A stretch of DNA of 64,000 nt, from the NCBI GenBank assembly GCA_913775095.1, contig CAJYIW010000002.1:372001-436000 (forward strand), written 5' to 3'. Positions 5,524 through 25,309 of the stretch are shown here, piece by piece. The translations under genes and the position numbers were made by a program. The notes under the pieces are model-generated. The model was not told where the DNA came from, did no database searches, and saw only the letters and a program-made list of their open reading frames with translations. The DNA comes from an uncultured Siphonobacter sp. Lineage in GTDB: Bacteria > Bacteroidota > Bacteroidia > Cytophagales > Spirosomataceae. Each line of letters starts with the position of its first letter. Positions within the stretch are counted from its first letter, which is position 1.

Positions 5524-5605
5524 GACCGGCGACGTTAACGACGTTTAGTTTCGGCACGTTTTTTCCCTTTTGCTTTGACCTGTCAACCAAAAAACAGGCC
5601 ATCCT

Positions 5606-5884: not shown

Positions 5885-5960
5885 TGCTTTTCTACGCTTT
5901 CTTTCCGCCGGGCGATCCCAGGCTTGAATTCATGTCTTCTGATCTTAAACTTTTCACGGG

Positions 5961-7163: not shown

Positions 7164-7166
7164 TAT

Positions 7167-7354: not shown

Positions 7355-7378
7355 TTCACTTCTTTGACGGCCGACTTT

Positions 7379-8224: not shown

Positions 8225-8236
8225 ACCCTGATTAGT

Positions 8237-8638: not shown

Positions 8639-8681
8639 AAACAAAAACCCCTGAATGGCTAGTAAGTCTTTTTGAAAGAAA

Positions 8682-8827
8682 AGAGCAAGCCGTAATGCCG
8701 CTTGAGGCGTCATACAGCTTGCTCTGCGAGGCTTATTTATTGGAAATCAGTGGTTTAACTTTTATCAGTAGCTTATAAAAGTTAACCTGGAGTTAAAAAA
8801 GGTGCTTTAGGTCTGATTATCAGACCT
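8682..8827. other. Candidate oriT: three successive inverted repeats
   Basis: Three hairpins occur in 146 bases just upstream of the mobilization genes: 9-base arms at 8682-8690/8717-8725, 11-base arms at 8755-8765/8775-8785, and 8-base arms at 8809-8816/8820-8827. In related Bacteroidota elements the transfer origin lies next to the bfmA/btgA-type gene. The third repeat could also be an operator for that gene. The nick site cannot be placed from sequence alone. Confidence 0.45.
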
Positions 8828-8848
8828 ATTAAGTTAATAATTAAGCTC

Positions 8849-9229
8849 ATGACTAAAGAAAAAATCAAACACGTAACGGTGAGCCAGGCCCGCTTTGCGG
8901 ACTTTGAAAAGCTGGCTAGATCCTATGATCTTTCGAACAAAGAAATGCTAGAAACCATGATTCACTTTTTTAAAGTGACCCAGATGGACCCCAGGCACGT
9001 AACGCCCACGAGCGCGGCCGATGCCATTAAAGCCCTCGATCGGCGCCTGATTAGCTTCATTCGTCAGCAGGAAAAAGAGCAGCTGCGGCCCATGAAAGAT
9101 GAGCTGGCTTTGATCACCAGAAAGCTCTACGCTTTTGACGATGAAGACACCGGAATAGGCAAGGTAACTCACCTACGCAAAATGAACGAGCGCTTAAAGC
9201 AGATCGCCCAGAAGCTGGGTATCACCTAA
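8849..9229 (+). CDS. BfmA/BtgA-type mobilization accessory protein
   Basis: This is a 126-residue, charged, helical protein without signal peptide. The N-terminal pattern (KHVTVSQARFADFEKLARSYDLSNKEMLETMIHFF) resembles a ribbon-helix-helix-like DNA-binding module, as in BfmA/BtgA accessory proteins that bind oriT and assist the relaxase. A coiled-coil stretch follows (IRQQEKEQLRPMKDELALITRKL). The gene lies between the inverted-repeat cluster and the relaxase gene, 14 bases upstream of the latter, matching btgA-btgB order. The family call rests on these patterns and on context. Confidence 0.8.
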   Translation: MTKEKIKHVTVSQARFADFEKLARSYDLSNKEMLETMIHFFKVTQMDPRHVTPTSAADAIKALDRRLISFIRQQEKEQLRPMKDELALITRKLYAFDDEDTGIGKVTHLRKMNERLKQIAQKLGIT

Positions 9230-9243
9230 AACGTATAGCAAGG

Positions 9244-10098
9244 ATGGTTACTAACTTTTCTGTTCCCATCAAAGGGGCCAATGCGGGCAGTTGTCGCCGC
9301 CTGGTGAGCTACCTCGAGAAAGAAGACCAGGGCCTGCCGCTTGAGCAGCAACGGGGCTTTTTCTCGCATGATCAGGATCAGATCCGGGGTCTTGAAGTGG
9401 TAGCCAGCATTGATGCGAATGCCGAGCGGCAGGGTCTAAAAAAAGAGCAGGATCGCTTCTATACCTTCACGCTCGATCCGAGTCAGAAGGAACTTTCTCA
9501 CCTCGCATCGGATGAAGCAAAGCTCAAGGCTTTCACGCGCCAGGCCATGGAAAACTACGCGGCTAACTTTCAAAAGAATCTTCAGAGTAAGGACCTAGTC
9601 TGGTACGCGAAGATTGAGCACGTACGAACGTTCTCGCGCGAGGACGCCGCCGTCCAGGAAGGCTTAGCCCACAAGGGGGAAGCCAAGCCGGGAGAGCAGT
9701 GTCACGTGCACGTGGTGGTCAGCCGCTTTGAAAAGCGGAGTGCTGAGCAGCAGCTTTCAGCAGAGCGGACGAAGTCACTCTCTCCGCTAACGAATCACCG
9801 AGCAAGCAAGGGCGTGATTCAGGGTAGCTTTACTAGAACCGATCTTATTGCCGCCAATGAGAAAAGCTTTGATGAGCTGTTTGGCTATGAGCGAAAACTA
9901 GAAGAGCAGTTTGCCTACGTCAAGGCCTTCAAAAGTGAGAACCAGGCTGAGCGGCTCTGGGCCAAGGAGCAGGCTTTAAAGGAAAGCCTGGCCCGGCAAA
10001 AGCAGGAGAAGCTAGCCAAGCAATCTCAGGAAAATCAAGCGAATCGTAGGCTTACTTCAGGCCCTGTTCAGCAGGTAGATAGCGGACTAAGCCGCTAG
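9244..10098 (+). CDS. Relaxase (BtgB / DUF5712 type)
   Basis: This protein probably nicks oriT and leads the strand into a recipient cell. The N-terminus (MVTNFSVPIKGANAGSCRRLVSYLEKED) and the metal-binding motif CHVHVVVSR (His154 and His156) fit the DUF5712 mobilization family. A candidate nucleophilic Tyr cannot be fixed, though Tyr residues in FYTFTLDPSQ (near 76) and VSYLEKE (near 23) are possible. The C-terminal 60 residues are a Lys/Glu/Gln-rich coiled coil (KEQALKESLARQKQEKLAKQ). It is 284 residues long and cotranscribed with the upstream accessory gene and probably the downstream coupling protein gene, 32 bases away. Confidence 0.85.
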   Translation: MVTNFSVPIKGANAGSCRRLVSYLEKEDQGLPLEQQRGFFSHDQDQIRGLEVVASIDANAERQGLKKEQDRFYTFTLDPSQKELSHLASDEAKLKAFTRQAMENYAANFQKNLQSKDLVWYAKIEHVRTFSREDAAVQEGLAHKGEAKPGEQCHVHVVVSRFEKRSAEQQLSAERTKSLSPLTNHRASKGVIQGSFTRTDLIAANEKSFDELFGYERKLEEQFAYVKAFKSENQAERLWAKEQALKESLARQKQEKLAKQSQENQANRRLTSGPVQQVDSGLSR

Positions 10099-10130
10099 GA
10101 AAAGTACTATTTTCTTTCTTCACCTAAACT

Positions 10131-11867
10131 ATGTGTTCAATCATGGTAATACTCTTGTATCGGTTGCTTGGCTTTCTCTTTCAATGGATCGGTATTCCGG
10201 TTCTGCTCTACTACGGCACGGGCTGGGGCATTTACTTTATTCTCCAAATGCCGATCTTTGTGAAGATCCCTGCGCTAGCTAAAGTGTTATCCAGCCTATC
10301 GAATCTGGCCTGCCTGGCGGCAGCGGGCTATTACCTGTTTTCTAAAGTCTCTCCCTGGCTACAGGGCACGCCTAAAACTAAGGTGGGCGAAGCTTCCCCG
10401 ACTACGAAGACCAAGACCCGCGTGAAAAGTAGTGTATTTAGCTTTCCCACGTCTAGTCGGGAGCTGCCCCTGATGTATCTAACCAACCCCTTTCGGGGCG
10501 TGCTAATTTTAGGGGGAGCGGGAGCCGGTAAAAGCAAGAGTCTCATTGAGCCCATTATTACTCAGTCCATTGCCGCGGGCTTTACGGGACTACTCTATGA
10601 TTTTAAGTTTCCCACCCTAGCTCAAGTAGCGAAGGCTTCGCTAGATAAACAAGCAGGCACGAAAGGCTACTTTGTGAACTTTGAGGATTTAAGCCGCTCG
10701 CACCGCTTGAATCCCGTGCATCCTTTGATGATGAAAACCCAGGCCCACGCCGATGAATACGCTAAAGCTATTCTTTATAATCTCAATCCCGAGTCGATTA
10801 AGAAAGCGGACTTTTGGAGTGAGTCCGCCCAGAGCTATCTAACGGCGGTGCTGTGGTTTTTGCGTCAGGAAAATCCCGAGCTCTGCACGCTGCCCCACGC
10901 GATGGCTTTGTTGTTTGAGCCGGTAGGGGAGGTAGTAGCCTTATTGAGTGAAAACGAAGAAACGTATGCCATGATTGCCAGCTTAAGAGAAGCCGTGGAT
11001 CGTAAGGCCGAAGCTCAGGTAGCCGGCGTAGTATCCTCCCTTCAAACGTCGCTGCGCAAGATTTACACCCCAGAGCTCTGCTGGGTACTCTCGGGCAATG
11101 ATCTGGATTTGAACCTGAATAATCCAAAGGAGCCTAAGTTTGTAACGCTGGGCAATCATCCGGGGCTAGCTAGTGTGTACGCACCCGTATTGGCGCTACT
11201 CGTCACGGTAGCTATTAAGCAAATGAATCAGCCGGGCAAGCTGCCGTCTTCGGTGATCCTGGATGAAGCACCGACTTTGTACATCCCGGGCCTCGAGCAG
11301 CTACCCGCTACGGCGAGAAGTAACAAGGTAGCTACCGTGTTTGGAGCTCAGGATATCAGTCAAATTGAGGATCTCTACGGGGCGGCTAAAAAGAATGCGC
11401 TGCTTGCGAATCTAAACAATCAGTTTTTTGGCAGAGTGGCTAGTTACCCGACCGCTCAGTACGTAGTGAATCTCTGGGGGAAAGCTTACGTCAAATCAGA
11501 ATCGGTGAGCGAGAGTAAATCCAGACAGAAAGAATCGGTGTCTAAAACGCAGAGTCTGCACGAGCGGAGTAGAGTGAGCGTGCAGGACGTACTGAGTTTA
11601 GAGACGGGCGAGTTTTTAGGGCAACTGGTGGAGTCGAATGTGAGCAGTTTTAAGGCTAGAATCAGCGTGCAGAAAGAAAGCGAGGGCGTGCCGATTGAAG
11701 CTTTTAAGCAAGTGGACGCTACTTTAATGAAGGCCAACGTTAGCCGGATTCGAGCGGAAGTGAAAACGCTGCTGGGAAAGGAGGAGGCAATTAAACCAAA
11801 CACTTCTAAATCGCATCTAAAGGCCGATGAGCCTGATTCTCCCGCTACTAAAGCATTGGACTTCTAA
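10131..11867 (+). CDS. Type IV coupling protein (TraG/VirD4 type)
   Basis: This inner-membrane ATPase hands the relaxase-DNA complex to a secretion channel. Two N-terminal membrane segments (residues about 5-35 and 50-70) precede the cytoplasmic domain. Walker A is GGAGAGKS (128-135) and Walker B is SSVILDEAP (Asp378, Glu379). Between them is the characteristic LLYDFKFPTLAQVA region, and an ATVFGAQDISQIEDLYG segment follows. The 578 residues fit the short BfmC/MobC class. No channel genes occur in the window, so it must work with a helper's apparatus. The start may be the second ATG at 10143. Confidence 0.88.
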   Translation: MCSIMVILLYRLLGFLFQWIGIPVLLYYGTGWGIYFILQMPIFVKIPALAKVLSSLSNLACLAAAGYYLFSKVSPWLQGTPKTKVGEASPTTKTKTRVKSSVFSFPTSSRELPLMYLTNPFRGVLILGGAGAGKSKSLIEPIITQSIAAGFTGLLYDFKFPTLAQVAKASLDKQAGTKGYFVNFEDLSRSHRLNPVHPLMMKTQAHADEYAKAILYNLNPESIKKADFWSESAQSYLTAVLWFLRQENPELCTLPHAMALLFEPVGEVVALLSENEETYAMIASLREAVDRKAEAQVAGVVSSLQTSLRKIYTPELCWVLSGNDLDLNLNNPKEPKFVTLGNHPGLASVYAPVLALLVTVAIKQMNQPGKLPSSVILDEAPTLYIPGLEQLPATARSNKVATVFGAQDISQIEDLYGAAKKNALLANLNNQFFGRVASYPTAQYVVNLWGKAYVKSESVSESKSRQKESVSKTQSLHERSRVSVQDVLSLETGEFLGQLVESNVSSFKARISVQKESEGVPIEAFKQVDATLMKANVSRIRAEVKTLLGKEEAIKPNTSKSHLKADEPDSPATKALDF

Positions 11868-12776: not shown

Positions 12777-14720
12777 ATGAAACTCACAAACGTACAGATC
12801 CATAAGTACAAAAGTATTGAGTCTGACCAATCTTTTAAAGTTGAGGACGGAATCACAGTTTTAGTGGGCATGAATGAAGCTGGTAAAACTAGCGTTTTAG
12901 AAGCTATTGCCAAAGTGAACTATTTCACAAACGATAAAGCCTTTAAGTTTGATACAACACACGATTATCCACGAAAAGAAAAGAAGAAGTTGGACAAATC
13001 TGGTGAAGATCCACGTGCTATTACTCTTAGTTTTAAGAATGATACATCCCTCTTAGCACAAATAGAAGATGACTTAGGGGAAGGGGTTTTCACTGTCGAA
13101 AACTTCACTTACGCAAAAAAGTATAGTGGTGGAGGGACTTTTGGTGGCGTGAAGGCCAATCTATCAAAGTTTGTAGATTATAAAATCTCTGAATTTGGCA
13201 TAGACGATGCAGACTTGACCACGAGACTAAAAAAATGTAATAACGCTGCTGAGTTTACCGAACTCTTGAAAACTATCGAAGATGATGAGCATGAAGGCAT
13301 AAAGGAGAATATAGAAACTCTTGAGGCTTATTTCGAGAATAGCTGGAATTGGGAAAGCGATCCACTTAGCGAATACGTTGCCCGGACTTACATAAGTCCA
13401 AATATGCCAAAGTTTCTTTATTATGACGAATATTACTCCTTACCGTCTGAAGTAGTTATTGAGGAACTATCTGCAAAGAAAACTGGAACTGAAAACGAAG
13501 AATACAAAACAGCGAAGGCTCTTTTCGAGCTGGCTGACATAAATGTAGATGATCTACTGAACGCTGATGATTTTGAGGATTACGTTGCCGAACTCGAAGC
13601 TACGCAAGCCCTTATTTCTAAAGAGTTGTTCAAGTATTGGTCGGCAAATAACAATTTAAAAATTCGATTTGCCATTGATAAAAAGATAGCCAAATCAACA
13701 AATTACAACAATAACAGAGAAGATAAAATTGTTGAGCATCGCTTAAATATTCGTGTTGAGAACACACGTAGCGATATGACTTTGCCGCTTAAGAATCGTA
13801 GCAAAGGTTTTAATTGGTTTTTCTCATTTTTAGTTTGGTTCAAAAAAATACAGGAGGACAAGCGATCAAATTATATTCTTCTTTTGGATGAACCTGGTCT
13901 CAATCTTCACGCTACTGCTCAAGGAGATTTACTGCGTTTCTTTGAGGATCTAGCTAATGAATATCAAATTATATACACTACACACTCGCCTTTCATGATT
14001 GATTCATTGAAGTTACCGAGTGTACGCACTGTCGTAGAGACAGAAACAGGGACAAAAATTTCTGATACAATTCAAGAAAAAGACCCACGAACCCTTTTCC
14101 CTCTTCAAGCAGCACTAGGATACAATGTAGCCCAGAACCTTTTCATATCTAAAAACAATCTTCTGGTTGAAGGAGTTTCGGATCTAATTTACTTGACCGT
14201 CATTTCCGATTTATTAAAAGGTGAAGGTCGAACGGGGTTAAAAGAAGATATAACCATCGTGCCTGTAGGCGGATTGGATAAAGTAACTACTTTCATTTCG
14301 TTGCTTGGAGCAAACAAGCTTAATATAGTTTGCTTACTAGATTCATTTGTAGATCAAAAAGGCAAAGCTAGGCTTGAAGATTTGATTCGCGGAAACATAA
14401 TCAAACAAAAGAACGTAAAGTTTTTTGATGAGTATGTCGCTGCTGACAAGGCAGATATTGAAGACTTGTTTGAGAAAAACGAGTACATTGCATTATTCAA
14501 TGAGTCATTTGCCGGAGAATACGCTGTCAAAGAATCTGATCTTGACTCGAAAGTATCTACAATTTTAGGGCAGATTAGTAAGGTAATCGGCAAGGCGCAT
14601 TTCAATCATTATCGCCCTGCTCGGTTACTTGCTGCAAAAGGAATAGATGCGAAATATTTTACTATTGCAACTCTGAATCGTTTTGAGCAAGTGTTTGCAG
14701 ATGTAAATAAGTTCTTTTGA
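12777..14720 (+). CDS. OLD-family ATP-dependent nuclease (AAA and Toprim)
   Basis: The 647-residue protein has an ABC-type ATPase domain (Walker A GMNEAGKT, residues 31-38; Walker B ILLLDEPG with Asp371-Glu372; switch histidine in YTTHSPFMID). A C-terminal OLD-type Toprim domain follows (NLLVEGVSDLIYL with Glu465; VPVGGLDKV; LLDSFVDQKG with Asp522 and Asp526). OLD proteins are nucleases, many of them anti-phage. No UvrD-like helicase gene follows, so this is not a Gabija pair but looks like a stand-alone class 1 OLD. The composition is intermediate between the backbone and the AT-rich cargo. It follows the decayed toxin-antitoxin relic, typical of a defence hotspot. Confidence 0.85.
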   Translation: MKLTNVQIHKYKSIESDQSFKVEDGITVLVGMNEAGKTSVLEAIAKVNYFTNDKAFKFDTTHDYPRKEKKKLDKSGEDPRAITLSFKNDTSLLAQIEDDLGEGVFTVENFTYAKKYSGGGTFGGVKANLSKFVDYKISEFGIDDADLTTRLKKCNNAAEFTELLKTIEDDEHEGIKENIETLEAYFENSWNWESDPLSEYVARTYISPNMPKFLYYDEYYSLPSEVVIEELSAKKTGTENEEYKTAKALFELADINVDDLLNADDFEDYVAELEATQALISKELFKYWSANNNLKIRFAIDKKIAKSTNYNNNREDKIVEHRLNIRVENTRSDMTLPLKNRSKGFNWFFSFLVWFKKIQEDKRSNYILLLDEPGLNLHATAQGDLLRFFEDLANEYQIIYTTHSPFMIDSLKLPSVRTVVETETGTKISDTIQEKDPRTLFPLQAALGYNVAQNLFISKNNLLVEGVSDLIYLTVISDLLKGEGRTGLKEDITIVPVGGLDKVTTFISLLGANKLNIVCLLDSFVDQKGKARLEDLIRGNIIKQKNVKFFDEYVAADKADIEDLFEKNEYIALFNESFAGEYAVKESDLDSKVSTILGQISKVIGKAHFNHYRPARLLAAKGIDAKYFTIATLNRFEQVFADVNKFF

Positions 14721-14996: not shown

Positions 14997-15635
14997 TTAG
15001 ACTTTATCTGGACTGTTTCCTTTCTCTATCCGGGAATGGACTCTACTGCCTTCTCTAATATCAATGAGGTGCGCAGCTTCAAAGAGCCTGATCAGGTGCC
15101 GGCAAAAGCTAACCCCGTCCCAGTGAATCTCCGTGGATAGGGTTTTACTCTGAGCATCGAGCAGCAGCTCGTGAAGCTCATCCTTCCACTCTTCCAGGGA
15201 TTGATAGGCTAGTACTTTACCAAAAACGCGGTAGGGGTTGAGACAGTCCTTGCGGCTGAGCATCCGGGGAAAGCAGTCAAAGTCGCTAGCACCCAGCTGC
15301 CCTTTTCCAAAGTAATGAGGGTTCATCAAATCTTCCTCCGTTACCAGAAAAGGAGCGTTTTGATCCTTTAACAGGTAGGCGACATTGAGCAGCGACTCGA
15401 TGGTTTCCACCAGACTTAGAAAGTAGCCCGGACTTACTTTGGTTTGCAACTGGGGCCGGCTGGCGGCTTTCCAAAAAGCATAGATGGCTTTTCGGTAGGT
15501 GCTCAGGTGATCCCTGCCAAAGATGCTCGTGATCACGGCGATGGGGTCAGTAATCTCATCGCGATACCAGCGGGAGCTGAGTGGATACGGTTCGATTTCG
15601 TTTTTCACCAGATTATAAATTGAGGTAGGATTCAA
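14997..15635 (-). CDS. Hypothetical protein coupled to NT-HEPN gene
   Basis: I do not recognise this 212-residue soluble protein. It is rich in aromatic and charged residues (SRWYRDEITDPIAVITSIFG; YRKAIYAFWKAASR; LVETIESLLNVAYLL) and looks mostly helical. Its start codon lies within the end of the upstream NT-HEPN gene, overlapping by 23 bases, which implies translational coupling and a shared function. Composition matches the element backbone rather than the AT-rich cargo. A partner or antidote for the HEPN protein is one possibility, but this is inference. Confidence 0.7.
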   Translation of the reverse strand: MNPTSIYNLVKNEIEPYPLSSRWYRDEITDPIAVITSIFGRDHLSTYRKAIYAFWKAASRPQLQTKVSPGYFLSLVETIESLLNVAYLLKDQNAPFLVTEEDLMNPHYFGKGQLGASDFDCFPRMLSRKDCLNPYRVFGKVLAYQSLEEWKDELHELLLDAQSKTLSTEIHWDGVSFCRHLIRLFEAAHLIDIREGSRVHSRIEKGNSPDKV

Positions 15636-16659
15636 AGACTTGAGCTAGGCGCAGCAGGAGTTCTTCTACCCTCAGCAGAAGAGCCCTGGTGTCCTCTTCC
15701 GATCCGCAAAAGGCAGGATCATAGCGAGCCCCCACGTAGGCTTTTTGCAGGGTCTTTAGTAGCCTCTTCTCCTGGGCAAAGACTTCAAAGAGCAAGGGCG
15801 AGAAGCGGCGCGAGAGCCGCAGCAGGTAGGGCAGGTTATGAGAAGACAGGCGTTTTCCCGTTAAACTTTCCAGTAAAGCCTGCAGGGCCTGCTCGCTGGC
15901 CTGGTGCAAAAGAAAGAGGCTTTGGGAAAATAAACCGGCCTGAAGTGAGAGGCGAGCGGCGCTAAGAAAAGCCTGCGCTCGGCCTTGATAGAGCTCAAAG
16001 GTCTTTTGAGCTTTCATGAACAGCGAGGGGCTCTCAGCAGGTACCGGGATGGGGGTACCTCCGTACCGGGTACCTCCGTACCGGGTACCCTTGTGGGACT
16101 CATAGATCGGAGCAGAGGAGCTCAGCAGCCGTTGAAAGAATAAACTCCCTGCTAGTAGCAGCTTTTTTATCTCCAGCGTAGTATCAAGCGAAAGGGTCAC
16201 CCCGCCGAATTTTTCACAGGCATTGGTGAGCTGGCTTTGTAGCGTAGGAAAGCAAGCCGGGGGCTGGGCAAGCAGCAGGAGCAGATCATAGTGGGGAGCC
16301 GTCTCATCGCTACCCAGCAGAAAGAGTTGATCGACCTCCACTAAAGAGATGATGGTTTGCAGAATAGATCGAAGAGGAGGGGATGAGTCAGGCGGCAGAA
16401 AAAAGCAGCCTGAAGCAGCAAGCGTCCTGGGGGCGTACAGCTCATGCGTAGCCGAAAGTAGTAGACTTAGCTGCTCAGAAATATACAGCAGATTAGCCGG
16501 GGAATGTTCTGAAGTGAGTGGGGGAGCCGAGAGGGCACTGGAAAGCAGGCCCCACAGCAACGCATCGCAGTCTTCTTTTTGGTGGGTGGCCCAGAAGTCA
16601 GAAAGCCAGTGCTCAGCCGAAGCGTGAGGGTTAAGACGAGAAAGCAGGCAGGAGTCCAT
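15613..16659 (-). CDS. Degenerate nucleotidyltransferase-HEPN fusion protein
   Basis: The protein has 348 residues. A middle segment (VDQLFLLGSDETAPHYDLLLLL) resembles the nucleotidyltransferase GS-x-D motif but keeps only one of the expected acidic residues, so activity is doubtful. The C-terminal 130 residues match the HEPN fold of Bacteroidota fusion proteins: AQAFLSAARLSLQAGLFSQ, then LLHQASEQALQALLESLTGKRLSSHNLPYLLRL, and KTLQKAYVGARYDPAF. HEPN domains often act as RNases or bind nucleotides in conflict systems. A GTRYG GTRYG tandem repeat lies between the two domains. The gene diverges from the XRE regulator, with a ten-G tract between them. Confidence 0.7.
   Translation of the reverse strand: MDSCLLSRLNPHASAEHWLSDFWATHQKEDCDALLWGLLSSALSAPPLTSEHSPANLLYISEQLSLLLSATHELYAPRTLAASGCFFLPPDSSPPLRSILQTIISLVEVDQLFLLGSDETAPHYDLLLLLAQPPACFPTLQSQLTNACEKFGGVTLSLDTTLEIKKLLLAGSLFFQRLLSSSAPIYESHKGTRYGGTRYGGTPIPVPAESPSLFMKAQKTFELYQGRAQAFLSAARLSLQAGLFSQSLFLLHQASEQALQALLESLTGKRLSSHNLPYLLRLSRRFSPLLFEVFAQEKRLLKTLQKAYVGARYDPAFCGSEEDTRALLLRVEELLLRLAQVFESYLNL
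16053..16090. repeat. 15-bp tandem repeat inside NT-HEPN gene
   Basis: A 15-base unit (GGGTACCTCCGTACC) occurs twice and is followed by GGGTACCC, encoding repeated GTRYG in the interdomain linker. The unit length is a multiple of three, so copy changes would preserve the frame. Confidence 0.8.
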
Positions 16660-16703: not shown

Positions 16704-16815
16704 AAGGGTCTATGCCATACGGGAAAGGAATACTTTAGAAGGAAAGGCTTCTAAGCTAGCCGCTGAGGAAACCGTGATTTTTTATAGATTTGTGAGAAAC
16801 CAAAAGCAGCGCATT

Positions 16816-17223
16816 ATGAGCAAGGCCATCCATCAGGGCAGAAATGTAAAGCGATTCAGAGAAATGCTGGGCTTGAAGCAGGAGGGGCTAGCCTATGAGC
16901 TGGGGGAGGAGTGGAGTCAGAAGCGGGTGTCGTTACTGGAGCAGAAGGAAGTCATTGAGCAGGAGCTCTTAGAGCAGGTGGCTCAGGTACTCAAGGTGCC
17001 GGCTGAAGCCATCAAGAACTTTGATGAAGAAACAGCAATTTATAACATTCAAAATAATTATGATTCCTCTACTAATAATTGCAGTGGGAGTTTTAATGAA
17101 TTTAGTTTTAATCCAATAGATAAAATATTAGAATTGGTGGAGGAAAATAAGAAATTATATGAACGTTTACTTGAAGTAGAGAGAGAAAAAAACTCAATGT
17201 TAAATAAAATAAAATTTAAATAA
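16816..17223 (+). CDS. XRE-family helix-turn-helix regulator
   Basis: The N-terminal part carries a Cro/CI-type HTH (GRNVKRFREMLGLKQEGLAYELG, then SQKRVSLLEQKEVIEQELLEQVAQVLKV). An Asn/Ser-rich linker (YNIQNNYDSSTNNCSGSFNE) and a C-terminal coiled coil (ELVEENKKLYERLLEVEREKN) follow. This domain order is common in Bacteroidota mobile-element regulators. ATG at 16816 is preferred over 16774 because the protein begins MSKAIHQGRNVK as in the family. The first part has backbone-like composition and the second half is AT-rich, so the join between backbone and cargo falls near 17035 inside the gene. It is 83 bases upstream of rdrA and could regulate it. Confidence 0.85.
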   Translation: MSKAIHQGRNVKRFREMLGLKQEGLAYELGEEWSQKRVSLLEQKEVIEQELLEQVAQVLKVPAEAIKNFDEETAIYNIQNNYDSSTNNCSGSFNEFSFNPIDKILELVEENKKLYERLLEVEREKNSMLNKIKFK

Positions 17224-17306
17224 TTTTTACTTATAGTTGTACTTACATAAGAATGATTATTTTTCTGTGAAAAAAATCCCTTTTAAAGATTATAAATGAC
17301 ATTATA

Positions 17307-19991
17307 ATGAACGAAATATCAATTGTTTTAGAAAATAGTACACATGCTCAAAACTTTGGATATGTAAAATCAAAAAACAGTACTATTGTTCATGTGAAAG
17401 AATTTGAAAAAGTATTTGAAATATTAGATCATATAATTCCCTACGAGGCTTATGAAAGCCATAATAATAATTTACATAATACTATAACTGTTTTAGGTTC
17501 AAGAGGAAGTGGCAAAACATCTTTTTTACTAAGTATCAAGCATGAAATAGAAAGAGAAAGAAATAAAATAGGTGATAATGTTCAAGTTTTAAATATCATA
17601 GATCCTACACTGATAGAAGAAAAAGGGCATGTTTTTCTTAATGTAATATCTAGAATTTCGGATTTGATTAATAAGACAAGTATAAATACGAATACAAGTG
17701 CATACGGTATAGAATTAAATCAAATGCAAAGAAAAAGATGGGAAATGTCCTTGTATTCATTAGCTGCAGGCCTACCATCTATTGATGGAATTGGAGAGCC
17801 GCATAATGAAAGTTGGCAAGACCCAGAATTCGTAATGGATAGTGGATTAAGAGCAGTAGATGCATCATTAAAATTAGCCGATAATTTCAATGAATTCTTA
17901 AAATTATCTTTGGAAATTTTAAGGAAAAAGGCATTTATATTAATGTTTGATGATATTGACATTGATTCTAGAAAGGGGTGGGCAGTTTTAGAAACAATTA
18001 GAAAGTATTTTATAGGAGCTAGATTAATAACAATAGTTAGCGGTGATCTTAAATTATATTCAACCGTAGTTCGTCAGAAAAAATGGCAAAATTTTGGTCA
18101 TGAAATAATTGAATACGAAGGTAAGTTAATTGGTAATATTGCTACTTACAATAGCATGGTTACTGAATTAGAATCACAATATTTGCAAAAAGTACTTCAG
18201 CCTAAATTTAGAATTCATTTGCCTACAATTGGAGATTTGATTTTAGGAGAAAATAATATAAAGGTTTACAAAAAAAGTACTGATTTGACGAATGGTTATG
18301 GGGTTGAAATTAGTAAATTGTATATATCAATATTGAAACAAATAGGAATACAGAATAGTATTTCGATTCGTCCCTATTTGAATTTTCTATTAAATCTCCC
18401 TTTAAGAACTCAAGTTCAAATTCTTTCTACTTTTAATGGAGACCATATTTTTATAGATGGAGAAAAAGTGGCTTCTTTAATAGATGTCTTTATTAGCGAT
18501 TTGTACATCAAAGAACTAACCCCTAATGATTTATTGAAGAATTCTAATAATTTAAATAACTTAGTCATTAGTTTCTTACTAAAAGAAAAAAAAATAGAGG
18601 AATTATATCAACTTCAGCCGATAACAAATGATTCATCTATGAATTCGGCTTTATTTGTTATGAATTTTATTTTATCCTACAGAATTAGAAGTAACAGCTA
18701 CATAATTTTCGACTATCTGATCAAAGTAGGATATATAAGGAATTTGGTGCCAATAATTGGATATAGAAAACAAAATAAGGAAAATTTAGAAGCTTCAATC
18801 GAAGATCTTTGCCAGAATATTATAACCCTTAACGATATTGGATTAAAAGATGTAGTAGGTAGAATAACATCATATATGAGAGGTCATATTGATAAAGGAG
18901 CAAATAGTGAATCAATTTCGAAAGTTGGCACTATACCTTTATTCGGAATGGCAGATAAGGCGAAGAAAATGAAGCAAGCGTCTTCTGGCAGAATAGATGC
19001 AGTTTTAAATAGTTTTGAAGCAAGTAATCTAGATCGACTTTTAGTTTATTTACCTCTGAGTTCTAATCAATATGTTTATAAGCAAGCTTCTTTGTTAACA
19101 TATTCACCATATTTATTGCTCAGCATCATAGGTGAGTTAGGTAAAAAAACATCATTTGCAGATATAAGAAATGCTTTTTCAGAATTAGCCCAGCTTAGAG
19201 GTTATGTGATGCCAGATTTTAAAAGAGGGAATAGTGAAGATTATGAAATTCAAGATGATTATGATCAAGATATAGAAGATGAAGATATGAATTTTGAATT
19301 TCATAAATTTTTTATGAACTGGTTGGACAAGTATCCTAAGGATAGCGTATCCATTCAGTTAATAGGGAAAATATCTACGCGTTTTTTTTATGCATTAACT
19401 AATCTAGAAAATAAAATAGGTAATAAAAGATTAGGGACAGTTTTCCAAGCTCAAATTATTACCTTCATGAATGCAGTATTAATAGAAGATTGTAAAGAAA
19501 ATTCGAGTATATCGTATCTTTTAAATTTAAATAATACTAATTATAGTGACTTTGTTTTTGTTAGTAATTTAAATAAAATAACCAAAGCATCAGATGATAA
19601 TAGTACTATAAATTTATCTTTTTCAAAATGGATGTTGAGCTGTCCTTTATTATTAGTTTACCTCAAAAAAGATACTATTTTACAGGAAGTAATATCAAAA
19701 TACTGTGAAACATCGATGGTAAATAATATTTTAGAATTTAGTGTAGCAAGCATTTTGGAAGAAATACCTATAAGGAATATTGAAGACGAAAATATAGATT
19801 TATTACCTATATCTTTATCTAGAAAAAATTATGCTGAAATTATAAAACGGTTAAATACGTTAAATTTTCAATTTGATAATCTAACGCTAGATAATGTGGA
19901 TTATTTGAAGTCTTCTTTAAGGAAAATTCAAGTTAATAAAGTTACAGATATCACTTTGAGGAATTTTATTAATAATTTAAAACAAAGTTAA
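17307..19991 (+). CDS. rdrA: RADAR anti-phage system ATPase RdrA
   Basis: This 894-residue P-loop ATPase has Walker A GSRGSGKT (residues 64-71) and Walker B ILMFDDIDID (Asp215-Asp216), plus a long AT-rich, helical C-terminal portion without other recognised motifs. Its size, KAP/AAA-like core and position directly before an adenosine-deaminase-fold protein match RdrA of RADAR. In that system RdrA assembles with RdrB, and together they deaminate adenosine nucleotides or RNA during phage infection, causing growth arrest. The stop codon TAA is immediately followed by the ATG of rdrB, which indicates strict coexpression. Identification rests mainly on the gene pair, since the RdrA sequence alone is divergent. 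Confidence 0.88.
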   Translation: MNEISIVLENSTHAQNFGYVKSKNSTIVHVKEFEKVFEILDHIIPYEAYESHNNNLHNTITVLGSRGSGKTSFLLSIKHEIERERNKIGDNVQVLNIIDPTLIEEKGHVFLNVISRISDLINKTSINTNTSAYGIELNQMQRKRWEMSLYSLAAGLPSIDGIGEPHNESWQDPEFVMDSGLRAVDASLKLADNFNEFLKLSLEILRKKAFILMFDDIDIDSRKGWAVLETIRKYFIGARLITIVSGDLKLYSTVVRQKKWQNFGHEIIEYEGKLIGNIATYNSMVTELESQYLQKVLQPKFRIHLPTIGDLILGENNIKVYKKSTDLTNGYGVEISKLYISILKQIGIQNSISIRPYLNFLLNLPLRTQVQILSTFNGDHIFIDGEKVASLIDVFISDLYIKELTPNDLLKNSNNLNNLVISFLLKEKKIEELYQLQPITNDSSMNSALFVMNFILSYRIRSNSYIIFDYLIKVGYIRNLVPIIGYRKQNKENLEASIEDLCQNIITLNDIGLKDVVGRITSYMRGHIDKGANSESISKVGTIPLFGMADKAKKMKQASSGRIDAVLNSFEASNLDRLLVYLPLSSNQYVYKQASLLTYSPYLLLSIIGELGKKTSFADIRNAFSELAQLRGYVMPDFKRGNSEDYEIQDDYDQDIEDEDMNFEFHKFFMNWLDKYPKDSVSIQLIGKISTRFFYALTNLENKIGNKRLGTVFQAQIITFMNAVLIEDCKENSSISYLLNLNNTNYSDFVFVSNLNKITKASDDNSTINLSFSKWMLSCPLLLVYLKKDTILQEVISKYCETSMVNNILEFSVASILEEIPIRNIEDENIDLLPISLSRKNYAEIIKRLNTLNFQFDNLTLDNVDYLKSSLRKIQVNKVTDITLRNFINNLKQS

Positions 19992-22370
19992 ATGTTTCAA
20001 TATATTCTTTCAGATAATGAATCTCTTCAACAATATCTAGCTGGAGAATATGTTAGTTTTGAAGATTTGAAAAGAAGATTATTTCTTGAAAAACGATCAT
20101 ATAATAGAGAAATTCCTGATCATTTATATAGATTAGAACAATTAAAATTGTTTGAAGGTATAAGCTCGATAAGTGAGCTTATAGTTTTAGCCCTACCTAA
20201 ATGGATTTCTAACTATTTAGATTTAAATAGAAATTTAATTCATGTTAAACTTGATCAACAAAATAATTGGCAAGAAATTTTGACATTTTTGCCACCCCTT
20301 TTTTTACAAAGTTTATTTTTATTCAAAGAAACTGTAAATAGGATTAAGTATGATCAACAAAGTATACGCTATTACTTTAATGAATACATTTTGCCTAATA
20401 CTTTATATACATCAATACCAAGCCCTAGAATTACTCAGTTAGATTACTTTGTTGAAAAGAATGGGGGCCTTTATGATTTGCATATGCATCTTAATGGATG
20501 TTTAGAAATGGATCATGTATGGCAAGATTTTTTATCTAATCCTATTAATGTATACAAAAGTTTGAAAAAAGGGTATTCTAATAGTAAAGTTAAAGAACAG
20601 TTAGAGCAAGAGTCGTCTTTACTAAAACCAATGGTATTTTATAAGATTTTGAAAATTGCTCAAAAATTAAGAGAAATATTTTATAAAGTTATATTTGCCA
20701 ATTCAGATGAGTATGATACATATAATCTAACAATTATTGTTAATAACTATAATTATGTTCATGGTAATTATAAACACCCATTTAGTGATTTAATATATAA
20801 TAATTCACTTGAAGGTAAAAATTTAATGTCTATTGAAGCATTAATGAATATACTAATTTTAAATAAAATAGTCTATAATAAAAACGAAAAACTAGCAGGA
20901 CTATATCACTTTTATTTACTGATTTTAGGTTTGTCAAATAGGTTACTAGTTCAACAAGTACACCAAAATGGTTTTGAACAGTTTCAGAAAAATACACTTA
21001 ATGAATTAAGAGAATATAGTGAAAGGTCTTATTTGCGTAGATTCTATCAAGTATCAGGAAATACTTTATCAAATATTAAATTTTTAGAAGGTCGTTTTTC
21101 TCCTAAGAAAACACAAAATGATTTGATACAGCTAATTAATAAAATTTATACTGGGTGGGATAATTTTACTAAAGATTTCAAATTAAATCATGTTGAAAAG
21201 AAATTACCTGAGTTAAAGCTAATAGCTCATTTCATTAAAAGGCCAGAGAAAAAGATACATCCTTTAATTAGACACAAAGAACTTCGTACGGATATTAACG
21301 CCAGAGCCCAAGTTTTAGCTTTATTAATCAAAAATTATCCTAATTATCGTTATAAATTATGCGGGATAGATGCTGCCGCTAGTGAATTTGATGCTAGCCC
21401 AGAAGTGTTTGCACCTGTTTTTAAAAAATTAAGAATGGCTGGCATTAAGCACTTTACCTATCATGCTGGAGAGGATTTCTTCCATATAATCGACGGGCTT
21501 AGAGCTATCTATGAGGCTATTGTATTTTGCGATTTGAAAAGTTCAGATAGAATAGGTCATGCTACTGCTTCGGGCTTATCTGTTAAGGCTTGGGCCAATC
21601 AAATTGATAATAAACTGAGTATCAGAAAAGGAGATCATTTAGATAATTGTATATTTTGCTACCACTTTATCACTACTAATAATATTGAGTCTTTAAATAA
21701 AGTTTTATTTATCTTAATTAAAGAAATAAATAAGTTGTCTTTTGAAATTTACGGACAATATTTTCCTATAGAAGGTTTAGTGCAATCCTGGTTACTAAGG
21801 CAATTTTGTCCTATTCAGCTTTTTAAAGAGATTGAAGACGAGAAATTAGGTATTTTCAATAGTATGAAATCTTATAATGAGTATAAAGCTGCCCATTGTT
21901 TATTAAATATAGATATTTATAATCATTTATCTGACAATATAGCATTCAAAATATACAGTTTTTATCATGATAGTAATTATAGAAGTAATTTTGATGAAAT
22001 TATTCAGATTAATGCATTTAGTTTATTGAACGATGTGCAAATTGAAGAGCTACAAATTCATTTACTTAAATTTATGAGCATGAAAGAAATTATTATAGAA
22101 TCATTACCTACAAGTAATGTAAGAATAGGCTTTCATAGAGATTTTAGCACTTATCATTTAATTAATTGGTTAAAATGGAAAGATGAAGGTAAAATGATTC
22201 CCTCAATTGTTTTAGGAACTGATGATTCTGGCATATTTTCAACAAATATCTATAATGAATATGCAAACATTTATTGTGCTTTATTACATAATCATAATAT
22301 TTCGCATTCCAAAATTATGGGAGCAATTGCCGTATTAAATGAAGATAGTAAAATTTATAAATTTTCTTGA
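19992..22370 (+). CDS. rdrB: RADAR anti-phage system adenosine deaminase RdrB
   Basis: This 792-residue protein is a divergent adenosine deaminase. The metal ligands and catalytic residues are visible in order: DLHMHLNG (His164 and His166), FTYHAGEDF (His491, Glu494), RIGHA (His523) and LGTDDSG (Asp744-Asp745). A large N-terminal extension and long insertions separate them, making it far larger than housekeeping deaminases, as expected for RdrB, which forms large shells that bind RdrA. The reaction is adenosine to inosine deamination. It begins right after the rdrA stop and ends before a hairpin pair separating it from the convergent methyltransferase. All catalytic motifs are intact, so the enzyme is predicted to be active. 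Confidence 0.92.
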   Translation: MFQYILSDNESLQQYLAGEYVSFEDLKRRLFLEKRSYNREIPDHLYRLEQLKLFEGISSISELIVLALPKWISNYLDLNRNLIHVKLDQQNNWQEILTFLPPLFLQSLFLFKETVNRIKYDQQSIRYYFNEYILPNTLYTSIPSPRITQLDYFVEKNGGLYDLHMHLNGCLEMDHVWQDFLSNPINVYKSLKKGYSNSKVKEQLEQESSLLKPMVFYKILKIAQKLREIFYKVIFANSDEYDTYNLTIIVNNYNYVHGNYKHPFSDLIYNNSLEGKNLMSIEALMNILILNKIVYNKNEKLAGLYHFYLLILGLSNRLLVQQVHQNGFEQFQKNTLNELREYSERSYLRRFYQVSGNTLSNIKFLEGRFSPKKTQNDLIQLINKIYTGWDNFTKDFKLNHVEKKLPELKLIAHFIKRPEKKIHPLIRHKELRTDINARAQVLALLIKNYPNYRYKLCGIDAAASEFDASPEVFAPVFKKLRMAGIKHFTYHAGEDFFHIIDGLRAIYEAIVFCDLKSSDRIGHATASGLSVKAWANQIDNKLSIRKGDHLDNCIFCYHFITTNNIESLNKVLFILIKEINKLSFEIYGQYFPIEGLVQSWLLRQFCPIQLFKEIEDEKLGIFNSMKSYNEYKAAHCLLNIDIYNHLSDNIAFKIYSFYHDSNYRSNFDEIIQINAFSLLNDVQIEELQIHLLKFMSMKEIIIESLPTSNVRIGFHRDFSTYHLINWLKWKDEGKMIPSIVLGTDDSGIFSTNIYNEYANIYCALLHNHNISHSKIMGAIAVLNEDSKIYKFS

Positions 22371-22392
22371 GTATGTGACTCTATATTAACGA

Positions 22393-22434
22393 CCTATAAG
22401 TGGTTATAGGATACACTTCTAATGGTGTATCCTA
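22393..22434. terminator. Two overlapping hairpins between RADAR and methyltransferase
   Basis: One inverted repeat has 7-base arms (22393-22399/22404-22410). A second has 10-base arms (22407-22416/22425-22434). They share 22407-22410, so only one can fully form at a time. Lying between convergent genes, they probably act as a bidirectional terminator. Confidence 0.55.
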
Positions 22435-22448
22435 CAGGGGATTTTTCA

Positions 22449-23789
22449 CTACCACTCCAATTCTAGTTGCTTAGCTTTATTCTCAAATTCGATTGCTACT
22501 GTTTTTTCATCCCATTTTATATTTTTTACATAGTCTGTAATCAAATGGTTTATAATTTTAGCTAATCCTTTTCCAAGTAATGGAGGTACGGCGTTACCTA
22601 CTTGAGCACAGCGAGGAACATCTAAACCTCTTCTATCACCATTTAATGTATATCTCCCTAAAAAATTAAATTTATCTGGAAAGGACTGTATTCTAGCCAT
22701 TTCTCGAACTGTAATTATTCTTGGTAATTTATAATGTATAAATTCATCTGGGTGAGTTGTTATTGTCGTTGATGGCTTAGAGGGATCAAGTACAAATTTT
22801 TTTCTAGAACTAATGCCCAAATTTTTTAAGAATGGTTGAGGTAATCTTCCTTTTTTGTTTTGTGAATGAGCTTCATTGAACAAATGAATTAACTTTTCTG
22901 AATGAATAGGAAATCTATGCGAGTCAGGGATTTGAGAATCAACACCAATTCTCATGAATTTTGAGTATTTTGATTTTGGCTTTAAATACTTACTTGTTTG
23001 GAACTTTGGAGCATCTATGCTTTGTATAAATTCCTCACCAGATAAGTCATTAATTGCATCTTCTATTGATACTTTACCACTTGTAGTGAAATTTAATTCT
23101 TCTTTTTGATCCTGTATTATTTTATTAATAATATGATTTAACCTTTTTTTAATAGATTCTTCTTTTACAAGGCTTTTTGAAATTCCAAACGTAATAATTC
23201 TTTTTCTAGCTTGCGGTACACCAAAATCAGAGGCATCTAGCAGAAAATACTCTGCTTCGTAACCAATATCATTTAACAAACTTACAACCACTGAAGCTGT
23301 ACTATCAGTATTATCGTTGGGCTTTGACTTAAATGCCTTAGCAAATCCACTAACATTTTCAATAATCACGAACGGTGGATTAATGATTTCAATGATTTCA
23401 AGCATATCAAAAACTAATTTGTTTCTTGGATCATTGCCATTTCTTTTACCCCCTACAGAAAATCCTTGGCATGGAGGACCTCCCATTATAAGTGTTACCT
23501 TATTACGAAGCCTTTTCAATACATTTCTATAAGTTTGATTTTCTAATAGTTCTTCAACATTCAATGGAGCTTTTGGAATTTCAATAGGCCAATCTTTAAA
23601 TTCTGAAAATGGTGCTTCTTCTTTTATGAAGTTATGATGAAAAGTATCGAAAGCCATTTTATCTTTTTCAACTGCAAACACACCATTCCAACCTTCCCAA
23701 AAAAAACCTAAAGAAGTTCCTCCTGCTCCTGCAAATAAATCAATGTATGTTTTCTGATTTATTAAGTTTTCTAAGCTTTTACGATCCAT
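22449..23789 (-). CDS. DNA (cytosine-5) methyltransferase, type II
   Basis: This enzyme transfers a methyl group from S-adenosylmethionine to C5 of cytosine. The motifs are in order: IDLFAGAGG (residues 16-24, cofactor binding), GGPPCQGFS with catalytic Cys107, VIIENVSG (ENV 144-146), QARKRI (193-198), and the C-terminal motifs TVREMARIQSFP and QVGNAVPPLLGKGLAK. The 446-residue length and the variable region between about 210 and 330 fit a type II methyltransferase. The HNH endonuclease gene lies upstream on the same strand, 130 bases away, making a restriction-modification pair. The sequence is strongly AT-rich, indicating recent acquisition. The target site cannot be read from the sequence. 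Confidence 0.95.
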   Translation of the reverse strand: MDRKSLENLINQKTYIDLFAGAGGTSLGFFWEGWNGVFAVEKDKMAFDTFHHNFIKEEAPFSEFKDWPIEIPKAPLNVEELLENQTYRNVLKRLRNKVTLIMGGPPCQGFSVGGKRNGNDPRNKLVFDMLEIIEIINPPFVIIENVSGFAKAFKSKPNDNTDSTASVVVSLLNDIGYEAEYFLLDASDFGVPQARKRIITFGISKSLVKEESIKKRLNHIINKIIQDQKEELNFTTSGKVSIEDAINDLSGEEFIQSIDAPKFQTSKYLKPKSKYSKFMRIGVDSQIPDSHRFPIHSEKLIHLFNEAHSQNKKGRLPQPFLKNLGISSRKKFVLDPSKPSTTITTHPDEFIHYKLPRIITVREMARIQSFPDKFNFLGRYTLNGDRRGLDVPRCAQVGNAVPPLLGKGLAKIINHLITDYVKNIKWDEKTVAIEFENKAKQLELEW

Positions 23790-23919
23790 GAGTGTGTTTT
23801 TTATCTAAACCAATGAATTTAGACGTTTTGTTTTACATATCAAACTATATGTTACCAGTTTTAGTTATATATTTCACTTTTTGTTTATAAATCCAACATT
23901 ATTGTTTTAATGAAATTAT

Positions 23920-24678
23920 CTAGATAGTGGTTTTATTATATTTTTCAATTATTTCGTTCAATAAGTCACTTGGATTTTTTCTCATTTCATTAGCTTTTTC
24001 GCGAAGAAATTTAATGTTACTCTGACTCATTTTTATTTGTGAATATTTTTCGGGGTAGGCCCAAGAGCATGTCTGGCAATCCAAATTGCATCCTCTACAA
24101 GAAGTACTTTTAAAATTATTACATTCATGGCAAAGAGGCTGCCAATTTTCTATTGAATTAGATCCACCCCTTACTCTAGGAATTTTGTGATCTTGATCGA
24201 AACGTATTTCAGGTTCTTTACGTCCACAAACTGGGCATGCAAATCCATATTTTACTAATACAGATTTCCATTCTATATTATTTAAACTAACTCTTGGGAT
24301 ACGTTTTGGAGCAGTAGTTAAATTTACAAGTTGAATAGAATTACCTTGCCTTGTAATACCTATAATGCCTTCTTCTCCTTGTAATTCTCTTACACGCCTA
24401 AAAGGATCTAAATAGGGGGGTTGTCCTAATTGTTCGCGTACTTTATTAATTGCATCTCTTATTTTACTCTGATGAACTATGGGACCCGGTATACCATGGC
24501 CAGAAGGCCATAGCTCTTCCAATACAGCACGATAGTATAATTTGTTTGCGGTACTTTTACTAACAAACTCTTTACAAGTTTCTTCTATCCATATATCTCT
24601 ATCAATTTCTGAATTCGAGGATGACAAATTAGGTGTTTCTAAAAAAAGAAAAGTTTGTCTGGCTTTACTACGTGTCAT
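23920..24678 (-). CDS. HNH restriction endonuclease
   Basis: The C-terminal half carries an HNH nuclease fold: ACPVCGRKEPEIRFDQDHKIPRVRG, then SIENWQPLCHECNNFKS. DH supplies the general base, and two CxxC pairs bind structural zinc. A further Cys cluster (CRGCNLDCQTC) suggests a second zinc site. The N-terminal half (residues 25-120) probably recognises DNA (YYRAVLEELWPSGHGIPGPI). The 252-residue protein should cut the sequence protected by the neighbouring methyltransferase. Its ATG overlaps the stop of the upstream XRE gene as ATGA, so nuclease translation is likely coupled to the regulator. The same region is AT-rich throughout. Confidence 0.85.
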   Translation of the reverse strand: MTRSKARQTFLFLETPNLSSSNSEIDRDIWIEETCKEFVSKSTANKLYYRAVLEELWPSGHGIPGPIVHQSKIRDAINKVREQLGQPPYLDPFRRVRELQGEEGIIGITRQGNSIQLVNLTTAPKRIPRVSLNNIEWKSVLVKYGFACPVCGRKEPEIRFDQDHKIPRVRGGSNSIENWQPLCHECNNFKSTSCRGCNLDCQTCSWAYPEKYSQIKMSQSNIKFLREKANEMRKNPSDLLNEIIEKYNKTTI

Positions 24679-24932
24679 AGTTGCTTGTCCAAAAGAGTAT
24701 TGAAAAACTTACTGGAGTCATCAACTAGCCATTCAACAGAAACATTTAAAATTTTAGCAAAGGCAAATAATTCAAAATCTTTTACGCCTCTAACTTTTCT
24801 TTCTATCTCTGATATATCAGATTGAGTGATTTTAATTGGATATGTTTCACTAATTGCAATTGCAAGATCTAATTGGTCCCAGCCAATTTTAAGTCGTGCT
24901 TCCTTTATTTTATGGCCAGTTGAGTTGATGAT
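24675..24932 (-). CDS. Small XRE regulator (C-protein-like) without visible AUG
   Basis: An open frame of about 85 residues encodes an HTH protein: HKIKEARLKIGWDQLDLA, then ITQSDISEIERKVRGVKDF and ELFAFAKILNVSVEWLVDD. This is the XRE type used as controller proteins in type II systems. Its TGA overlaps the endonuclease ATG by four bases (ATGA). No ATG, GTG or TTG occurs between the HTH and the in-frame TAA at 24957-24959. Upstream of that stop the same frame has an ATG (24975-24977) with only six codons. The start may thus be a rare codon (two ATC codons at 24927-24932), or the start was lost, or the TAA is a point mutation. The 5' limit given is approximate. Confidence 0.6.
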   Translation of the reverse strand: MINSTGHKIKEARLKIGWDQLDLAIAISETYPIKITQSDISEIERKVRGVKDFELFAFAKILNVSVEWLVDDSSKFFNTLLDKQL

Positions 24933-25017
24933 AGTAAGTTTTTTGTTTTTAGAAAATTACAATCAACTATCAACATGATGTAGACGATTATCGTATATTG
25001 ATCATAAACTATTGATT

Positions 25018-25050
25018 AATAGATATTATTTCTTTGAAATAATATCTATT
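25018..25050. repeat. 14-bp perfect hairpin upstream of restriction operon
   Basis: The two 14-base A/T-rich arms flank a five-base loop (25032-25036). It lies about 90 bases upstream of the restriction operon. It may be an operator for the controller protein or a structural site of the element end. Confidence 0.55.
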
Positions 25051-25167
25051 TGTGATTGGATGAAGTCATATAAATAATATATGTTGTACTAGTGTAAACA
25101 TACTATAATCTGTTTTCTTCTATAAAAAAATTAGATTATAACTATGATAGATATAATTCTGTTTTAT

Positions 25168-25187
25168 TGTTCGACCTATGTTCGAGC
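25168..25187. repeat. Putative integrase arm-binding sites, right end
   Basis: TGTTCGACC (25168-25176) and TGTTCGAGC (25179-25187) repeat the pair seen at 1281-1300, with the same 11-base spacing and orientation, 44 bases inside the right attachment site. Confidence 0.5.
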
Positions 25188-25223
25188 AAAATAAAAAGCA
25201 GTTAGATTTTTACATCTAACTGC
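25188..25223 (-). terminator. Terminator of tRNA-Pro, carried by the element
   Basis: A hairpin with 10-base arms (25198-25207/25214-25223) is followed on the minus strand by a T-rich tail (complement of 25188-25197). It sits just past the tRNA 3' end, so the element brought a replacement terminator when it displaced the original one. Confidence 0.75.
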
Positions 25224-25230
25224 TTGATTT

Positions 25231-25281
25231 TCAAGTCGGGATGGCGGGATTCGAACCCACGACCCCTTGCACCCCATGCAA
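25231..25281. repeat. Right attachment site (within intact tRNA-Pro)
   Basis: The copy is identical to 1118-1168. Here it is joined to the 5' half of tRNA-Pro (25282-25309), so the tRNA remains functional after insertion. Confidence 0.9.
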
Positions 25282-25309
25282 GTACGCTACCGGACTGCGC
25301 CACATCCCG
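25236..25309 (-). tRNA. tRNA-Pro (GGG anticodon)
   Basis: The 74-base gene folds into a standard cloverleaf. The acceptor arms are CGGGATG and CATCCCG. The anticodon stem CTTGC/GCAAG encloses loop ATGGGGT with anticodon GGG. The T-arm is standard with TTCGAAT, and the discriminator base is A. CCA is not encoded. It is the insertion target of the element, and its 3' half is duplicated at 1118-1168. Confidence 0.95.

Follow-up and report, generated by a model that had tools for sequence, protein, structure and literature searches.

The rdrA-rdrB gene pair

The present analysis concerns a pair of adjoining genes from an uncultured Siphonobacter species, a member of the Bacteroidota. They lie in a stretch of 64,000 nucleotides (contig CAJYIW010000002.1, positions 372,001 to 436,000 of the forward strand), which is referred to as the window and in whose coordinates all positions are given. 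The first gene, rdrA (17307-19991, forward strand), codes for an AAA+ ATPase, RdrA, of 894 amino acids, and the second, rdrB (19992-22370, forward strand), for an adenosine deaminase, RdrB, of 792 amino acids, both in intact, full-length frames. The TAA stop codon of rdrA (19989-19991) is followed directly by the ATG of rdrB at 19992, such that rdrA stands immediately upstream of rdrB, as required for the RADAR anti-phage system. The order of ATPase and deaminase with touching stop and start codons, from which the original prediction named the system, is thus confirmed. A gene for an XRE-type protein ends 83 bases before rdrA, and 78 bases separate the end of rdrB from a methyltransferase gene on the opposite strand. 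The pair is a complete, divergent and standalone (rdrAB) example of RADAR, a system which is itself already known. It is considered highly probable that this rdrAB pair belongs to the broad group holding the Escherichia coli RADAR solved by cryo-electron microscopy, and that it is carried as cargo of a mobile island.

The identity of the pair as RADAR is borne out by profile, sequence and fold searches, all of which rank RdrA and RdrB first. The best-scoring family is RdrA for the first protein (NCBIfam, 5.1e-39 and 134 bits; PADLOC, 1.9e-31 and 107 bits) and RdrB for the second (NCBIfam, 5.4e-43 and 148 bits; PADLOC, 3.6e-28 and 96 bits). In phmmer searches against the sequences of the PDB, the only significant match of RdrA is the E. 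coli RdrA (8fnt, 8hr7 and others; 4e-34), over the ATPase part at residues 58-377, and the only significant match of RdrB is the E. coli RdrB (8fnv, 8fnw; 1.2e-75), over residues 159-791. AlphaFold models built from alignments of 72 rows reach a pLDDT of 88.4 for RdrA and 93.7 for RdrB. Foldseek aligns the RdrA model over nearly its whole length with 8hr8 (TMq 0.73; 916 alignment columns including gaps), and in this alignment the fold of the C-terminal helical domain is present in the predicted model; the corresponding value for the Streptococcus suis RdrA (8fnu) is 0.43. The RdrB model aligns with 8hr7 and 8fnv, again over nearly the whole length, at TMq 0.80-0.83. Large insertions in the RdrB deaminase core are indicated by the length of the protein and by the fold match as a whole.

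The Walker motifs that had been read in RdrA and the metal ligands that had been read in RdrB both proved to be intact. In RdrA, the Walker A motif occupies residues 66-71 (G69-K70-T71) and Walker B is represented by D215-D216, followed by D247 as sensor 1 and R367 as sensor 2. Residues G69, K70, D215 and D216 are invariant in all 72 aligned RdrA proteins, the position of T71 is threonine in 63 and serine in 9, and that of D247 is aspartate in 68 and asparagine in 4. The equivalence of R367 to R377 of E. coli was read off alignments, and the residue is invariant in the 72 rows. In RdrB, all five of H164, H166, H491, E494 and H523 align with their E. coli counterparts (H152, H154, H498, E501 and H530), and the four zinc-binding histidines and the catalytic glutamate (E494) are invariant in 90 of 90 aligned RdrB proteins. 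The same holds for D744, and the neighbouring D745 is aspartate in 88 rows and asparagine in two.

Three RADAR subtypes are distinguished in the portion of PMC7699616 drawn on here: rdrAB, rdrABC with Csx27 and rdrABCD with SLATT. The window RADAR is of the standalone subtype, rdrAB. The absence of a third gene resembling SLATT or Csx27 had been part of the original claim, and it holds both for the neighbouring genes and for the adjoining intergenic space. No such match was found among those listed for the eight neighbours scanned (for two of these, the best 25 rows), a scan which a very divergent accessory protein would escape, and the gap between rdrB and the methyltransferase gene has no open reading frame of at least 20 amino acids, except for a 24-codon frame overlapping the methyltransferase gene. 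The SLATT-associated RADAR of Aureibacter (L025) shares the rdrA-rdrB core, yet there a SLATT gene follows rdrB, whereas none was found beside the window pair.

Relatives and co-inheritance of the two genes

A match to RdrB at 1e-10 was found in 10 of 395 genomes drawn evenly from the phylum, the window genome included, and at 1e-3 in only one of 59 near relatives, which is the window genome itself. A broader search of 84,980 genomes, one per species, yielded 517 stretches that matched the patterns. Among these, 441 code for a relative, the 80 best of which provided 79 loci; the loci were thus picked by likeness to the window, and counts among them say little about more distant RADAR groups. 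The alignment and tree of 90 rows omit L047, L052, L080, L086 and L096, in which RdrB is shorter than 700 amino acids, split or absent, as well as L001-L016 and L111 (L012, L013, L014 and L016 repeat L028, L034, L047 and L070). The analyses A3 and A4 omit 10 of the 79 loci (L042, L047, L052, L053, L057, L068, L080, L083, L086 and L096).

Loss of the partner ATPase in close homologous loci had been named as a possible refutation. A profile search recovered RdrA at 75 of the 79 genome loci, and in 73 of these it lies no more than 100 base pairs from RdrB. The two loci beyond that distance are L057, with a gap of 217, and L096, in which RdrB is split into two frames, the first one adjoining RdrA. 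Three of the four loci without a full pair (L053, L080 and L086) reach the end of a contig. The exception is L047, from a member of the Bacteroidales, which has a truncated RdrB and no RdrA although about 10 kb of upstream sequence is present. Thus, RdrA is kept beside RdrB wherever the contig allows, this one fragment aside. The pairwise distances of the two proteins are correlated (r of 0.93 for 72 pairs, against 0.10 for the best among 1000 permutations), which shows that RdrA and RdrB are co-inherited, while relatedness alone would also contribute to a correlation of this kind.

The closest relatives are those of Flavobacterium sp. LC2016-23 (L028) and Emticicia sp. 21SJ11W-3 (L029), with 53% identity each in RdrB, and 52% and 49%, respectively, in RdrA. 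Both have the two-gene order of the window but different neighbours; in L028 a relative of the window XRE-type gene lies downstream of RADAR on the other strand. In the quick tree of 90 rows, the window pairs with Emticicia (SH-aLRT 98), inside a group of seven rows that also comprises Flavobacterium, Pinibacter, two Chryseobacterium and Pedobacter (SH-aLRT 99). A wider group of 82 rows holds the E. coli type and is split, with a support of 100, from eight distant rows which include the Vibrio/Salmonella type. The latter (L024, L027) likewise consists of two genes and keeps the catalytic residues, yet forms a separate group in the tree. The rows from Bacteroidota are clustered (7 changes, against 21.5 for shuffled labels), yet they do not make up one clade, which fits some transfer between phyla without proving it.

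Several further observations concern RADAR loci elsewhere. Contigs of IMG/VR that are classed as viral carry RADAR (L107-L110), which in three cases hardly differs from the E. coli type. A protein-only scan of phage records gave no match, and one of viral contigs gave no relative, while an alignment scan of the latter gave five. Two distant Bacteroidota loci share a gene of 723-729 amino acids upstream of rdrA, the products being 54% identical (L017:13501-15672 and L019:13707-15896); in L019 the RdrA region is split into frames of 317 and 486 amino acids. On pRLN3 of Rhizobium leguminosarum, a gene resembling adenylosuccinate synthetase lies 0.9 kb downstream of RADAR (L021:11408-13009), which is of note beside an inosine-making system; by BLAST, no other locus compared has one. 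No flanking family recurs in more than five of 79 loci (the window and 78 genome loci, L080 being dropped), many of the contigs being short. A hydrophobic family of 206-224 amino acids adjoins RADAR in five of the 79, either upstream of rdrA or downstream of rdrB (L038:12542-13162, L039:6633-7289, L063:6465-7139, L065:6384-7040 and L071:423-1055), and is a possible Csx27- or SLATT-like accessory. Pfam gave no family above cut-off for the three of these membrane proteins scanned (L038, L063 and L065), and PADLOC gave one weak SLATT match, at 0.0014, for that of L038.

Proposed mechanism and alternative readings

The E. coli RADAR, as described in the portion of PMC9994260 used here, is built of RdrA heptamers and RdrB dodecamers and, once infection occurs, turns ATP into ITP and dATP into dITP. 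Since every catalytic residue tested is kept in the window pair, the same chemistry is the best inference here; substrate, oligomers, activation and protection are drawn by analogy from the E. coli and Citrobacter systems. RdrA would be a ring-forming AAA+ ATPase, with its C-terminal helical part as the likely sensor of infection, and RdrB a zinc adenosine deaminase with RADAR-specific insertions. Upon phage infection RdrA would switch on RdrB, which would in turn convert ATP and dATP to ITP and dITP, thereby poisoning the nucleotide pool and aborting phage growth. The window pair has the gene order, protein sizes, ATPase motifs and overall predicted folds of the RADAR of E. coli P0304799.3 (8fnt, 8fnv, 8fnw), together with the zinc histidine tetrad and the glutamate of its RdrB. 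The differences lie in the host, which is here a Bacteroidota bacterium, in the crown and shell-interface positions, which mostly differ, and in the degree of identity, which amounts to about 28% for RdrB and 20% for RdrA when measured against Pantoea (L023), the RdrB of which is nearly identical to the solved E. coli protein.

Certain observations weigh against assigning the pair to the group of the solved E. coli system as island cargo. According to the part of PMC9994260 cited above, charge swaps at K150, E151 and R162 of the E. coli RdrA crown weaken or abolish defence, and these residues are called conserved. In the window, these docking positions are occupied by R142, which is conservative, K143, in which the charge is reversed, and A154. 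The glutamate triad E595-597, on which the E. coli RdrB shell depends, aligns with G588-Q589-Y590, in a loop alignment that is less sure. Low G+C content is alone no proof of recent transfer, the integrase of the element itself having a value of 0.34. Finally, the pair falls below the NCBIfam equivalog cut-offs by a wide margin, with 134 of the 600 bits set for RdrA (NF041743) and 148 of the 800 bits set for RdrB (NF041744).

The crown and shell-triad positions vary across the RADAR group aligned. Because the interface positions mostly differ, the E. coli assembly cannot be presumed to hold here in every detail, and the exact RdrA-RdrB complex may, to judge from these residues, differ from that of E. 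coli. The altered positions make the pair a natural test case for the extent to which the large assembly of RdrA and RdrB is conserved. As for the cut-offs, the Pantoea RdrB can be aligned with the solved E. coli protein over its entire length (1675 bits, 799 residues), yet the Pantoea pair also falls short (128 of 600 bits for RdrA, 115 of 800 for RdrB). Since a pair whose RdrB is near-identical to the solved, functional protein fails too, the NCBIfam cut-off does not define RADAR. Eight of the nine RdrB proteins tested fall below the RdrB cut-off, and only that of Aliivibrio (L024), which is of the Vibrio type and annotated as RADAR, lies above it, at 970 versus 800 bits. A pair of the Pantoea type in E. 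coli W284, with 94.9% DNA identity to the Pantoea rdrB, is annotated as ‘archaeal ATPase’ and ‘hypothetical protein’, and labels of this sort are what the records examined give for such pairs. The cut-offs reject the group that holds the solved E. coli system, and RADAR is therefore probably under-counted by annotation relying on them.

Other identities for the second protein find little room. It is very improbable that it is a housekeeping adenosine deaminase of nucleoside salvage whose gene lies by chance behind that of an unrelated ATPase, even though Pfam A_deaminase scores above its cut-off (32.2 versus 27 bits) and TIGR01430 is seen weakly. The latter gives 32 of the 216 bits needed, and the profile search proposed as a check on the original prediction leaves the housekeeping families far behind RdrA and RdrB; moreover, the protein has 792 residues, its model reaches TMq 0.83 with RdrB as against 0.30 or less with the listed housekeeping deaminases, and its partner is co-inherited with it. 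The housekeeping deaminase was accordingly rejected on score, fold and partner gene. Still less credence is given to a CARF-adenosine deaminase linked to type III CRISPR (Cad1-like) in place of RADAR. Cad1 also deaminates ATP, and the PADLOC CARF_ADA profile matches RdrB at 3.5e-09, yet the best stretch of that profile starts at position 262 of 605, with no CARF part matched there, the Cad1 fold gives TMq 0.27 or less, and the partner is an RdrA-type ATPase; profile stretch, fold and partner gene together led to its rejection.

Two further possibilities accept the RADAR descent of the pair and question its function, and each is judged improbable. The pair may be a decayed or silent copy residing on the element. 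The truncated L047, devoid of RdrA, demonstrates that decay happens, and the interface positions of the window pair differ from those of E. coli; against this, both frames are of full length, the catalytic residues tested are all kept and both models are confident. The system may, on the other hand, act mainly by A-to-I editing of RNA, as was originally proposed for the Citrobacter RADAR in the portion of PMC7699616 consulted, and the structures 8hra and 8hrb are titled RdrA ‘in RNA-loading state’. The portion of PMC9994260 considered here describes no strong RNA editing by the E. coli RADAR, which nevertheless deaminates ATP and dATP, and for the Citrobacter system it describes a weak A-to-G signal at select sites.

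The tRNA-Pro element and its cargo

A standalone RADAR remains the preferred reading of the pair, and its surroundings suggest how it may have arrived. A direct repeat of 54 nucleotides with one mismatch bounds an element of 24.1 kb, the two copies being read as its attachment repeats. Its left copy lies at 1115-1168 and its right copy at 25228-25281, within the 3' part of a tRNA-Pro(GGG) gene (25235-25309, reverse strand). The backbone of the element comprises a tyrosine integrase (1291-2556), helicase/primase-like genes (5961-8224), a relaxase-like DUF5712 protein (9244-10098) and a T4CP, or coupling protein (10131-11867). The DUF5712 protein carries the HxH-containing stretch CHVHVVVSR, which resembles a relaxase motif. 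No transfer apparatus was recognised in the element, although four backbone open reading frames of at least 100 amino acids had no Pfam match and may hide transfer genes. At the left end, a pair of 61-nucleotide repeats (938-998 and 1082-1142) is 85% identical; a degenerate fragment of the attachment region lies within the outer copy, perhaps as the scar of an earlier insertion.

The G+C content is 0.28 in rdrA and 0.27 in rdrB, versus 0.48 in the backbone (4393-11867) and in the host flank; it is 0.37 in the OLD-like gene and 0.53 in the HEPN pair described below. In a sister species of the same genus (G005), pieces of the backbone recur at 95% identity (window 1115-2532), 92% (4391-9047) and, for others, 78-98%. 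A genome search at 1e-3 gave no RdrB match in this species, whose assembly breaks at the tRNA-Pro repeat, leaving the full cargo unread. In 38 other genomes, no match to window 17193-25220 was found, the matches ending at or before 17192 (seven candidates per genome, E up to 1e-10). Such comparative evidence supports the earlier suggestion that RADAR is cargo of a mobile element in tRNA-Pro: judged by base composition and comparison of sequences, the pair is likely to be low-GC cargo of an integrative mobilizable element, by which rdrAB would have reached this genome. That a clean RADAR of a Bacteroidota host sits on a mobile island, while a related genome shares some of this backbone and gives no RdrB match, fits the view of RADAR as cargo that can be exchanged. 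Genes like those of the backbone occur near RADAR in Dysgonomonas (L048; integrase and DUF5712), Mucilaginibacter (L034; integrase), Pinibacter (L031; T4CP) and the truncated L047 (primase).

The remaining cargo includes an OLD/AriA-like ATPase-TOPRIM protein (12777-14720, forward strand) and, on the reverse strand, a protein of no assigned family (14997-15635), a HEPN protein (15613-16659), a C5-cytosine methyltransferase (22449-23789) and an HNH endonuclease (23920-24678). The last two likely form a type II restriction-modification pair. Because the OLD/AriA-like, HEPN and methyltransferase-HNH genes accompany RADAR, the island is likely a multi-defence island. Upstream of the HNH gene, an 85-codon frame resembling a helix-turn-helix protein (24675-24932, reverse strand; listed from ATC) looks by eye like a restriction-modification controller.

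The XRE-type helix-turn-helix gene before rdrA (16816-17223, forward strand) starts at the ATG at 16816, inside a longer frame that begins with GTG (16774-17223). It was considered as a dedicated third RADAR gene and rejected: its family is multi-copy in the genus, with relatives reaching as many as five copies in a genome that gives no RdrB match (G001), and it is rarely found beside RADAR. Relatives at a BLAST threshold of 1e-5 lie beside only two other RADAR loci compared, namely L028 (the same place as L012) and L018. The middle of the gene is a possible left border of the RADAR cargo, the G+C content being 0.51 before position 17050 and 0.22 after it. The two copies in the sister species G005 share 92-100% identity with the window in their first 180 nucleotides; the values fall to 82-88% in the following 60, after that to 67-74% and at the end to 42-44%. 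Elsewhere, a relative stands 27 bases before a pair of CBASS cyclase and TIR-STING genes (L140), and a second one (L138) precedes, by 13 bases, an ATPase gene that matches AbiLi/mad3 weakly.

A tentative and rather unlikely proposal is that whole defence cassettes are exchanged by the tRNA-Pro element at one fixed position within the XRE gene. On this view, recombination would use the 5' half of the gene as a common anchor, the 3' half would be carried along with the cargo (in this case RADAR and restriction-modification), and the regulator may control the cassette behind it. The proposal draws support from the falling identity of the G005 copies, the drop in G+C and the neighbours of the relatives in L138 and L140. 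Against this, all 14 copies compared have lower G+C in the 3' half, and in most of them this half is also the more divergent, so that the pattern belongs in part to the family as such; moreover, the majority of the other copies do not precede any recognised defence gene. In the sister species, an XRE copy on one contig (G005:C17, L133) precedes genes for a Y-family polymerase and a DnaE-like protein and lies beside a related piece of backbone, and locus L130 also carries a relative of this XRE family.

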